A DNA stretch of 64,000 nt from an uncultured Paracoccus sp. Lineage in GTDB: Bacteria > Pseudomonadota > Alphaproteobacteria > Rhodobacterales > Rhodobacteraceae. The notes beneath the pieces were generated by a model, which worked only from the letters and a program-made list of their open reading frames with translations, did not search any database and had not been told where the DNA came from. The stretch covers positions 1-64,000 of the forward strand of contig NZ_CALMYP010000066.1 of assembly GCF_937873615.1 (NCBI RefSeq), written 5' to 3'. The translations under genes were made by a program, and so were the position numbers. Positions 31,975 to 59,640 of the stretch are shown here, one piece after another; position 1 is the stretch's first letter, and every line of letters begins with the position of its first letter.

Positions 31975-31996
31975 CAATTGCTGCATGGCAGCATTG
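31975..31996 (+). promoter_or_regulatory. Inverted repeat upstream of the DUF1127 gene
   Basis: CAAT-TGCTGC-ATG-GCAGCA-TTG: a nine-pair inverted repeat with one bulged T, loop ATG. It could be a protein site or an RNA hairpin in the leader. No heat-shock promoter could be assigned with confidence; CTTGAT at 32035-32040 is the best -35-like element, but without a good -10. Confidence 0.3.
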
Positions 31997-32103
31997 AGGG
32001 AATGAGCATTGTGCAATCGCAGCATCAGGTCCATCTTGATCCCAACGAGGCGGATGCGCCGCCCCGTCGACATGAACCGAATAGATACGAAGCGAATAAG
32101 ACG

Positions 32104-32328
32104 ATGGCCGCAACGAACACGATCACCCAAACCGCCCTGAACGAACGGGCTGCCAGCACCGGCATCATGGGCCTGTTTGCACGCCTTCAGGAAGCCCGCG
32201 CCCGCCGCGCCGTGTATCGTCAGACGGTGGCCGAGCTTTCGAGCCTTTCCAGCCGCGAGCTGGACGACCTCGGCATTCACCGCAGCATGATCACCCGGAT
32301 CGCGTCGGAAGCTGCCTGGGGCAAGTAA
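32104..32328 (+). CDS. DUF1127 protein, CcaF1-like RNA-binding protein
   Basis: A 74-residue, Arg-rich protein with a C-terminal DUF1127 domain (about 24-70): LFARLQEARARRAVYRQT, then LSSLSSRELDDLGIHRSMI, the hallmark of the family. In Rhodobacter sphaeroides a DUF1127 protein, CcaF1 (RSP_6037), is encoded directly before the CcsR sRNAs, is made under stress from RpoH promoters, and binds RNA to aid sRNA maturation. The size and the hairpin array starting 11 bases after the stop match that locus. The ATG at 32104 was chosen over one 44 codons upstream on length and family start. Confidence 0.8.
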   Translation: MAATNTITQTALNERAASTGIMGLFARLQEARARRAVYRQTVAELSSLSSRELDDLGIHRSMITRIASEAAWGK

Positions 32329-32330
32329 GA

Positions 32331-32410
32331 ACACCTATACCCGACCCTCCCTCCTCCCTGGGTCCGGGTTTAGGCGGCACCTCCCCTCCTCCTCCCTGGA
32401 GGTGCCGCCG
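32331..32410 (+). ncRNA. CcsR-like sRNA unit 1 (two hairpins)
   Basis: Leader ACACCTATAC, then hairpin 1 at 32340-32368 (arms CCCGACCC / GGGTCCGGG, loop TCCCTCCTCCCT) and hairpin 2 at 32373-32409 (perfect 12-bp stem GGCGGCACCTCC, loop CCTCCTCCTCCCT). Each loop displays the CCUCCUCCC-type anti-Shine-Dalgarno motif. Confidence 0.8.
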
Positions 32411-32499
32411 ACAGAATTCGACAGGGCCTCTCCTCCTCCCTCGGCCTTGTTGGTGACAGCGGCGCCCGCGCTCTCCTCCTCCCTGCGAGGGCGTCGCTA
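32411..32499 (+). ncRNA. CcsR-like sRNA unit 2 (two hairpins)
   Basis: Hairpin 3 at 32421-32450 (ACAGGGCC / GGCCTTGT, loop TCTCCTCCTCCCTC) and hairpin 4 at 32458-32498 (14 positions with one G-U and one mismatch, loop TCTCCTCCTCCCT). The leader differs most from the other units, which share CACC...ATA. Confidence 0.75.
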
Positions 32500-32581
32500 G
32501 ACACCGGATACGTCCGCCCCTCCCTCCTCCCTGGGGCACGACGTCAGCGATGCAGGCTCTCCTCCTCCCTGCCTGCGTCGC
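32500..32581 (+). ncRNA. CcsR-like sRNA unit 3 (two hairpins)
   Basis: Leader GACACCGGATACG, hairpin 5 at 32511-32543 (CGTC and GCCCC arms around an internal loop, loop TCCCTCCTCCCT), linker TCAGCGAT, hairpin 6 at 32547-32581 (GCGATGCAGGC / GCCTGCGTCGC, loop TCTCCTCCTCCCT). Confidence 0.8.
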
Positions 32582-32659
32582 ACCCTATATGCCGGCCCCC
32601 TCCTCCTCCCTGGGGCTGGCATCAGCGATACGGGCTCTCCTCCCTGTGCCCCGTGTCGC
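32582..32659 (+). ncRNA. CcsR-like sRNA unit 4 (two hairpins)
   Basis: Leader CACCCTATATG, hairpin 7 at 32589-32622 (ATGCCGGCCCC / GGGGCTGGCAT, loop CTCCTCCTCCCT), linker CAGCGAT, hairpin 8 at 32625-32659 (GCGATACGGG-type arm with a bulge, shorter loop TCTCCTCCCT). Hairpin 8 has one CTC fewer than the others. Confidence 0.8.
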
Positions 32660-32742
32660 ACCCCATACGCGGCCCTCTCCTCCTCCCTGGGCCAGCGTTG
32701 ATGCGGCGGCGCCCCTCCTCCTCCCTGGGTGCCGCCGCTTTT
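32660..32742 (+). ncRNA. CcsR-like sRNA unit 5 (two hairpins, terminator)
   Basis: Leader CACCCCATACG, hairpin 9 at 32667-32698 (ACGCGGCCC / GGGCCAGCGT with a bulged A, loop TCTCCTCCTCCCT), linker TTGATGC, hairpin 10 at 32703-32738 (12-bp stem GCGGCGGCGCCC / GGGTGCCGCCGC, loop CTCCTCCTCCCT) followed by TTTT. Confidence 0.8.
32703..32742 (+). terminator. Terminator formed by the tenth hairpin
   Basis: The last CCUCCUCCC hairpin is directly followed by TTTT, so the same element ends the DUF1127-sRNA transcript. Distance to the rlmJ start is 30 bases. Confidence 0.75.
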
Positions 32743-32772
32743 CATTTCGGACATGGCGGGCGATAAGGCGGG

Positions 32773-33674: not shown

Positions 33675-34118
33675 CTAATGGTGATGACCGCCATGATGAT
33701 GGCCGCCACCATGATGGCCGCCGCTGTGATGGCCGCCGCTATGACCGACGAGGTGGTCGTGATGGCCGCCATGAGTGCCATGCGCCTCTCCGCCATGCGA
33801 ATTGTGGTGGCGGTGGCGGTGGGTATGCGAGAAACCGCCATGGCTGTGGTGGTGGTTGTGATAGAAGAAGTCGTCGTCGCTATTGATGGCCTCGTTCAGA
33901 ATCGCGCCGGCAGCCACGGCCCCGAGAAGCGCGCCGCGCCCGTCGCGCGACCCGCGCTCGTATTCCTGCATGTAGCGCGCATTGCCCTCGCAGACCGCCG
34001 GGATCTCTCGGCCCTCATGGCCGAAGCGATAGGCTTCCGCATCCGAACAGATATCCTGAGCGAAAAGGGGCGTGGCAAAGACCGCCCCGAAGAGCATCGG
34101 CAAACTGATCCGCATCAT
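33675..34118 (-). CDS. Exported histidine-rich protein
   Basis: A 147-residue protein with a signal peptide (MMRISLPMLFGAVFATPLFA, cleavage before QDICS), a folded segment with two Cys (QDICSDAEA, PAVCEGNA), a Gly/Ala hydrophobic stretch (GALLGAVAAGAILNEA, residues about 62-77), and a C-terminal half dominated by His and Gly, ending in HHHGGHHH. Such tails bind Ni, Cu, Zn or Co, so a periplasmic metal buffer is plausible, but no metal transporter is adjacent. AAGGAGAAGG precedes the start. The middle hydrophobic stretch could also be a glycine-zipper. Confidence 0.75.
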   Translation of the reverse strand: MMRISLPMLFGAVFATPLFAQDICSDAEAYRFGHEGREIPAVCEGNARYMQEYERGSRDGRGALLGAVAAGAILNEAINSDDDFFYHNHHHSHGGFSHTHRHRHHNSHGGEAHGTHGGHHDHLVGHSGGHHSGGHHGGGHHHGGHHH

Positions 34119-35681: not shown

Positions 35682-35809
35682 AGATAGGAGATCATGGGCG
35701 CTGCTGCAACGTTCCGCCGCGCCGTATCGGACGAAGCGCTCTTCGCATAGGCTGCCACTCCGCAGGGCCAGCGGACGACCGCGGGTGGCCGCTGCCGATA
35801 ATCGGGGTG
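35682..35809. other. Junction between AT-rich island and repeat array
   Basis: Base composition returns to GC-rich within a few dozen bases of the HEPN gene stop. No gene, integrase, tRNA fragment or flanking direct repeat marking an insertion end was recognised. Confidence 0.4.
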
Positions 35810-36495
35810 AGCGCTTTATCGTGCCTCTTGCCGCTGACCGGCTGTTCGGCGCGGGCCGGTGAAGAAGCGGCCGCCCAGGGGGCGGTCGGCCGCTGGCCCG
35901 GGCCGCTCGCGCGGCGTGATTCCGGGCCGGGTTGTCGTGGGACGTGCAGGAGAAGGGCGGGGGTGCGTGCTTCATGGGGCCTCTCGCCGCTGAACGGCTG
36001 TTCGGCGAGGATCGGCGAAGAAGCGGTCACCCGGCGGGCGGTCGGCTGCTGGCCCCGGGCCGCTGGCGCGGCTTGATTTCGGGTCGGGTTGTCGGGGGAG
36101 GTGCGGGATAAGGGCGGGGGTGCGTGCTCTATGGGGTGTATCGCCGCTGAACGGCTGTTCGGCGTGGGTCGGCGAAGAAGCAGACACACAGGGGGCGGTC
36201 GGCTGCTGGTCCGGGGCGCTCGCGCGGCGTGATTCCGGGCCGGGCTGTCGGGGGAGGTGCGGGATAAGGGCGGGGGTGCGTGCTCTATGGGGCCTCTCGC
36301 CGCTGAACGGCTGTTCGGCGCGGGTCGGTGAAGAAGCGGCCGCCCAGGGGGCGGTCGGCCGCTGGCCCGGGCCGCTGGCGCGGCTTGATTCCGGGCCGGG
36401 CTGTCGGGCGAGGTGCGGGACAAGGGCGGGGGTGCGTGCTCTATGGGGTCTCTCGCCGCTGAACGGCTGTTCGGCGTGGATCGGCGAAGACGCGG
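35810..36495. repeat. 156-bp tandem repeat, about 4.3 copies
   Basis: The landmark CCGCTGAMCGGCTGTTCGGC starts at 35831, 35987, 36144, 36300 and 36456, a period of 156-157 bases. The first and last copies are partial. Because 156 is divisible by three, long frames stay open on both strands; the minus strand would encode a 52-residue Pro/Arg/Ala repeat. Each full unit carries an inverted repeat around AGCGGCCG / CGGCCGCT (35866-35894, copy 1; 36335-36363, copy 4). In copy 3 (36179-36207) it is AGCAG / CTGCT, a compensated change. No SD-led start supports translation. Confidence 0.85.

Positions 36496-58623: not shown

Positions 58624-59640
<1,017 letters not shown>

Follow-up and report, generated by a model that had tools for sequence, protein, structure and literature searches.

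What kind of locus places ten hairpins with one shared loop directly behind a small protein gene in a Paracoccus genome, by what unit is it built, and what are its loops likely to do? In the window analysed here, the whole stretch of 64,000 nucleotides, the loop core CTCCTCCC occurs ten times, always on the + strand and confined to 32351-32725. Dinucleotide shuffles of the window contained it 2.8 times on average and seven times at most; chance origin of the loops was rejected, because ten were never reached in any such shuffle. The interval 32329-32750 folds into ten hairpins at -213.9 kcal/mol, whereas its shuffles average -151.2 (z = -11) and none of 100 reaches so low an energy, and the original prediction of ten consecutive hairpins with a shared loop therefore holds. 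The extended loop CTCCTCCTCCC, which had been assigned to nearly all of the hairpins, is present in 7 copies.

Immediately before the array, in the same orientation, lies a DUF1127 gene, and after it rlmJ (from 32773); the first stem begins at 32340. The upstream gene, ccaF1 (32104-32328, +), encodes a 74-residue protein whose predicted DUF1127 identity is confirmed by a match to PF06568 (50.6 bits, E 1.5e-13); its codon differences from nine relatives range from 24 synonymous and 6 nonsynonymous (G008) to 17 and 24 (G100). Five two-hairpin units follow on the + strand. Unit 1 (32340-32409) comprises hairpins 1 and 2 (32340-32368 and 32373-32409) and is defined by the fold, with loops at 32351 and 32389; unit 2 (32420-32498; hairpins 3 and 4 at 32420-32451 and 32458-32498), unit 3 (32510-32581; hairpins 5 and 6 at 32510-32544 and 32547-32581) and unit 5 (32667-32738; hairpins 9 and 10 at 32667-32699 and 32703-32738) are each marked by fold, loops and covariation. 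Unit 4 (32589-32659; hairpins 7 and 8 at 32589-32622 and 32625-32659) is a near tandem copy of unit 3, and TRF reports a repeat at 32517-32691 (period 78, 2.2 copies, 82% matches) that spans units 3 and 4 and runs into unit 5. Hairpin 10, with TTTT directly after it at 32739-32742, looks like a terminator.

The grouping into five pairs, as originally proposed, is not obvious from spacing in the window alone, since the loop-start distances within units (38, 43, 38, 34 and 38 nt) overlap those between them (44, 48, 41 and 43 nt), i.e. 34-43 versus 41-48 nt; it is species comparison, as described below, that supports it. The CACC..ATA leader, which had been ascribed to four of the units, is exact in units 3, 4 and 5 and one base shorter in unit 1 (CACCTATA), whereas unit 2 has AGAATTC. 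An ATA leader is thus present in 4 of the 5 units and, although unit 2 is without it, ATA is found at that place in 9 of 9 aligned relatives; the portion of the leader mostly common to the ten-species alignment is ATAC. Two further features of the window lie outside the operon, namely a 156-bp tandem repeat at 35804-36495 (4.4 copies, 87% matches), with open frames through the repeat on both strands, and a gene at 33675-34118 (-) for a secreted-looking protein with a long histidine/glycine-rich tail, possibly metal-binding; the 3' end of this gene carries repeats of 15 and 30 bp.

With respect to family, positions 32505-32627 (+), i.e. from just before unit 3, match Rfam RF02344 (ar14) with 63.1 bits, above the gathering threshold of 58.8. 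This is the one match above cut-off among four overlapping RF02344 matches at E <= 0.001 in the genome to which the window belongs, all of them in the array; the other three score 37.9-54.6 bits. At the same E-value, 120 of the 125 genus genomes have an RF02344 match, which exceeds the cut-off in 39; of 394 family genomes, representing 393 genera, 331 have one, and in 54 it exceeds the cut-off. Cereibacter johrii, a relative of R. sphaeroides, has eight hairpins in four pairs, spaced 37|66|38|77|38|75|38. This four-by-two arrangement agrees with the four published CcsR RNAs, which RNase E releases from the ccaF1 transcript (PMC10253847, PMC7866481), and with RS0680a, described as having two stem-loops (PMC3927594). 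Together with the Rfam match and the DUF1127 gene, it bears out the assignment to the ccaF1-CcsR type: in this Paracoccus species the locus represents the ccaF1-CcsR operon and belongs to the ar14/cuckoo family of anti-Shine-Dalgarno small RNAs.

This kind of locus is already known. CcaF1-CcsR1-4 of Rhodobacter (Cereibacter) sphaeroides is described with the same components, i.e. a DUF1127 gene, tandem two-hairpin RNAs, the same loop motif and a 3' terminator (PMC10253847), but with four units, whereas the Paracoccus locus has five, with its own stem sequences; relative to C. johrii, the loops of neighbouring units are closer (41-48 nt versus 66-77). The ar14/cuckoo RNAs of the Rhizobiales (NfeR1, SmelA075, SmelA099) share the RF02344 match, the loop motif and variable stems (PMC3927594, PMC10746234). 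They are reported to have two to four hairpins (PMC3927594), compared with ten behind a protein gene here, and NfeR1 is reported to have its own sigma70-type promoter (PMC10746234), whereas the present array follows a protein gene. The aR8 family (SisA-D, MmgR) also has an anti-Shine-Dalgarno core, and SisA a large target set, but the core is a single-stranded stretch of 10 nt 3' of a weak hairpin, with no hairpin array (PMC12559287). Among the papers listed in literature searches, none treated the array sizes of Paracoccus or regulation of ccaF1 by a LysR-type protein, which is not a claim of absence from print; in the main text of the P. denitrificans sRNA paper (PMC5107571), the terms 'ar14', 'Rfam' and 'DUF1127' are all absent.

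Analyses of an alignment of ten Paracoccus arrays, each of ten hairpins, reveal strong conservation of pairing. RNAalifold predicts 100 pairs, 19 of them with compensatory change, and the ten named helices are paired in 93.9% of cells versus 39.5-44.5% in slid controls, in accord with the claim that the stems vary yet keep pairing. Pairs altered on both sides number 23, versus 10.8 in shuffled alignments (0 of 500 shuffles as high); further pair types, at 57 versus 52.9, are barely above the shuffled value (25 of 500 shuffles). Helix 7 is least conserved (73.7% of cells paired) and, in unit 1, helix 1 is invariant and helix 2 co-varies. Conservation of stem pairing across related genomes, on which the original prediction had staked its reading, is thus apparent. 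All ten species retain ten CTCCTCCC. Among these close orthologues, however, the loop columns do not exceed the stem columns in conservation (mean majority fraction 0.903 versus 0.895), and the contrast between a constant loop and variable stems is one between the hairpins of a single array; the proposal that structure and loop, not the stems, are selected is accordingly upheld for the pairing, but not by the loop columns of orthologues. A coding array was also considered and rejected, because the many 1-2 nt gaps seen by inspection inside the array of the alignment make a conserved reading frame through it implausible.

The comparison of unit counts between Paracoccus species that had been suggested gives a wide range of sizes. 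The hairpin counter applied constrained folding to the surroundings of each exact CTCCTCC and therefore overlooks decayed hairpins, and arrays at contig ends may be cut, e.g. in G057 (9 hairpins, close to the contig end); by this counter, 4 of 80 named loci gave no array (L329, L336, L353, L356). Taking the largest array in each of 113 of the 125 Paracoccus genomes (12 were left out), sizes run from 2 to 20 hairpins: 8 in 22 genomes, 10 in 26, 12 in 27, 14 in 17, 16 in 3 and 20 in 1, with other sizes in the remainder. With more than ten hairpins in 55 of the 113, we rejected a uniquely expanded locus; the description of the window's array as expanded is thus not supported in that form, the array being ordinary for Paracoccus, although it exceeds the published R. 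sphaeroides locus by one unit.

Even counts predominate in the genus (98 even and 15 odd of 113; p 4e-16, with kinship ignored), and several of the odd arrays have a gap of 82-85 nt, some of these gaps containing a hairpin with an altered loop. In even arrays of at least 6 hairpins, the distance between loops is near-fixed within pairs (median 38 nt, IQR 37-39, n=533), compared with 45 nt (41-66, n=437) between pairs; in such arrays with a DUF1127 gene, ATA occurs in 316 of 428 between-pair spacers versus 17 of 521 within-pair spacers. A T-run of at least 4 follows 72 of 106 last hairpins versus 4 of 1056 internal ones (genus arrays of at least 4 hairpins with a DUF1127 gene). The even counts, within-pair spacing and ATA spacers, along with the four pairs of C. 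johrii, imply that the unit is probably a two-hairpin CcsR. At the level of sequence comparison, these analyses show ten co-varying hairpins with one loop motif and, in the genus, a two-hairpin unit, ATA spacers and a terminal T-run; they indicate that the two-hairpin RNA is the usual unit of evolution and that the ATA spacers are candidate processing sites. In Paracoccus saliphilus, the twenty hairpins repeat with a 188-nt, four-hairpin period at 96% matches, showing that this array recently grew through tandem duplication. In one genus, the fourteen hairpins of L221 (G481) have a three-hairpin period (spacing 40, 33, 37) and so depart from the pairwise pattern of other arrays.

Small arrays, of only two or three hairpins that share this loop, occur at L139 (G008), L138 (G056), L127 (G025), L125 (G085) and L126 (G093), the last three being the sole array fetched from their genomes; a DUF1127 gene was not detected upstream of them, either by motif search (L139, L138) or by profile (L127, L125, L126). 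Linkage to a DUF1127 gene in 107 of 113 genus genomes is a biased figure, because most genus loci were fetched by their CcaF1 matches. The family sample avoids that bias, its arrays being fetched by RNA match, but is biased otherwise, as its 90 genomes (of the 331 with RF02344 matches) were taken from the best-scoring list. With G329 giving no array, the other 89 have arrays of 2-15 hairpins, most commonly 8 (23 genomes), with weaker parity (58 even, 31 odd); a DUF1127 gene lies within 300 nt upstream in 82 of the 89, as judged by a profile built from Paracoccus proteins, and T-runs follow 47 of 79 last hairpins versus 17 of 561 internal ones. A similar organisation of the locus is thus shown, as regards sequence, in many genera of the family.

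As to function, we consider it likely that the ccaF1 transcript carries five tandem two-hairpin CcsR RNAs, with the loops blocking the Shine-Dalgarno sequences of uptake and catabolic mRNAs at a dose set by unit number. The DUF1127 gene and, in its 3' UTR, the five RNAs would be made as one transcript; to judge from position and composition, RNase E, aided by CcaF1, would cut at the ATA spacers to give five CcsR RNAs of about 70 nt. Each of these would expose two CCUCCUCCC loops able to pair with purine-rich Shine-Dalgarno sequences, and pairing would block ribosome binding, chiefly on mRNAs for solute uptake and catabolism. The number of units would then represent the dose of one activity, not added specificities, and would change via tandem duplication. 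Published work on relatives is consistent with several of these steps. In R. sphaeroides, transcription of ccaF1-CcsR is reported to start at a promoter of the RpoHI/RpoHII type and RNase E to cleave the transcript (PMC10253847), and the 3' ends of CcsR1-4 to depend on RNase E and PNPase (PMC7866481). In the case of S. meliloti NfeR1, ntrB is reported to be silenced via the loops, with repression of an ntrB reporter lost when all three loops are mutated, and the predicted targets are described as mostly ABC transport systems (PMC10746234).

Potential targets in Paracoccus point to the same class. Among genes with GGGAGGAG, which is complementary to the loop core, ahead of their start, transport components (a class assigned by reading Pfam names) make up 8 of the 19 scanned in the genome of the window and 6 of the 13 scanned in G008, after sites without a frame of at least 60 aa had been dropped (4 of 23 and 7 of 20, respectively, two of the latter being one place). 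Control Shine-Dalgarno words in the former genome gave 1 transport gene of 21 for AAAGGAGA (24 sites listed, with one duplicate and two short frames dropped) and 0 of 7 for AAGGAGGT (8 of 15 sites dropped); one control gene of the AAAGGAGA set, L267, has no Pfam match. The pooled difference between GGGAGGAG and the control words has a Fisher p of 3e-4. The only gene recognised by N-termini in both GGGAGGAG sets encodes a Peripla_BP_6 protein (L247, L360). The signal is an enrichment of one class among a small number of genes; it agrees with the target class described in the literature and is no proof of regulation.

The same loops might instead mainly sequester G/A-rich small RNAs or mRNA leaders, as a decoy for RNA that does not silence chosen genes. 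In Caulobacter, a sponge RNA whose stem loop is G/A-rich is reported to counteract the anti-Shine-Dalgarno RNA SisA (PMC12559287), implying that such pairs exist in the class, and many loops per transcript would suit buffering; given, however, that the published ar14 member NfeR1 silences mRNAs (PMC10746234), we regard such a decoy as unlikely. A protein could also be the ligand, the ten loops titrating CcaF1 or some other protein that binds C-rich RNA, in which case pairing to mRNAs would not be required. The sponge RNAs CsrB and RsmZ likewise have many hairpins with one loop motif, although their loops carry GGA and bind CsrA, whereas the loops here are CCUCCUCCC and in a relative the transcript is processed into units. 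The repetition of one loop on differing stems and arrays that reach 20 hairpins would suit a protein sponge, as would the reported binding of RNA by CcaF1 and its reported part in the maturation of CcsR (PMC10253847, PMC12501420); the unit-wise spacers and the published processing into separate RNAs are at odds with one long sponge, and the loops of the related NfeR1 act by pairing at ntrB (PMC10746234), so that we give titration of a protein a rather low probability.

That the hairpins only protect or end the ccaF1 mRNA, with the loop incidental, is very improbable: the T-run does usually follow the last hairpin, but internal hairpins are nearly without T-runs, and near-constant loops on varied stems, with all ten CTCCTCCC kept in every aligned species, argue against an incidental loop. 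Titration of ribosomes, which had been suggested earlier, or binding of 16S rRNA would fit the resemblance of the loop to ribosomal sequence but is of negligible probability, because the loops have the same sense as the anti-Shine-Dalgarno tail of 16S rRNA and same-sense sequences cannot pair, whereas the Shine-Dalgarno sequence of an mRNA can pair with the loop (the 16S tail pattern had no match in this draft genome). The part of that suggestion concerning titration or occlusion of mRNA targets remains plausible, in keeping with the preferred reading of CcsR loops as blockers of Shine-Dalgarno sequences.

Transcription of the operon would probably be stress-responsive, and the region upstream of ccaF1 suggests that a LysR-type regulator may act there, at conserved dyads. 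LysR-type promoters usually combine a remote recognition site with a second one that covers the -35 element. In the window, a distal dyad, TGCTGCATGGCAGCATTG (31979-31996, +), resembles a VtlR-type box, with 1 mismatch to the motif CAATGCAGCCATGCA reported for Brucella VtlR (PMC12595884), and is the best match in its genome to TGCATGGCWGCATTG, the pattern with A or T at the differing base. The proximal element TTGTGCAATCGCAGCAT (32009-32025, +), conserved in upstream regions, contains TGCA-N6-GCAT and overlaps a -35-like TTGTGC; a -10-like CATCTT (32032-32037, +) lies 16 nt past TTGTGCA. Across 189 upstream regions (107 from the genus, 82 from the family), TTGTGCAnnYGCAG is found in 160 (0 in mononucleotide shuffles) and a -10-like hexamer 13-17 nt further on in 156, at 16 nt in 120 of those, such that a TTGTGC-N17-CATCTT-like core is conserved upstream of ccaF1; the distal dyad as a strict inverted repeat, TGCyGCATnGCAGCA, is found in 90.

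The distal dyad lies 1-2 bases off CAATGCAGCCATGCA in 116 of the 189 regions, always in a single orientation (0.2 regions in mononucleotide shuffles), and 27-28 nt before TTGTGCA in the 105 of these that have TTGTGCA. TGCA-N6-GCAT, the form reported for the LsrB motif of the NfeR1 promoter (PMC10746234), is found in 145 of 189 regions versus 1.6 in shuffles, and the proximal element fits it. The resemblance of this conserved dyad pair to VtlR/LsrB boxes suggests LysR-type control of ccaF1-CcsR across the Rhodobacteraceae. Against this, the promoter reported for R. sphaeroides is RpoH-type, and the one mismatch of the distal dyad to CAATGCAGCCATGCA falls on a base that is fixed in the box form GCAT-N3-TG-N3-T (PMC7486931). 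LsrB is stated to be confined to the Rhizobiales, on the basis of few representative species (PMC11975290), and the trxB-vtlR arrangement is called well conserved in the class (PMC7486931). An LsrB beside trxB was rejected as the regulator here, the trxB locus of the window (58624-59613, -) having no lysR neighbour; after it come a 167-aa frame without a Pfam match and an ATP-sulfurylase/APS-kinase gene. Two other sites were also rejected: a second box-like site at 58708-58722 is inside the trxB coding sequence, and the second copy of TTGTGCANNNGCAGC in the genome (L357) falls within an open frame of 712 aa and is hence unlikely to serve as a promoter.

We therefore put forward, tentatively and as somewhat less than an even prospect, the possibility that a putative LysR-type regulator switches ccaF1-CcsR across the Rhodobacteraceae via a distal TGCTGCATrGCAGCATTG and a proximal TTGTGCAnnnGCAGCAT over the -35 element, in the way that VtlR/LsrB controls DUF1127 genes and anti-Shine-Dalgarno sRNAs among the Rhizobiales, with the array serving as a copy-number dial that in Paracoccus ranges from 2 to 20 hairpins, mostly in steps of two (or four).

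The range of 2 to 20 hairpins within one genus constitutes a natural dosage series of a single riboregulator in which the loop sequence is unchanged, and in which loop dose can be related to physiology. The upstream promoter element may connect the operon with a circuit of a different order, that of VtlR/LsrB, and makes it possible to test whether DUF1127 proteins and anti-Shine-Dalgarno sRNAs belong to a single stress module conserved in the Alphaproteobacteria.
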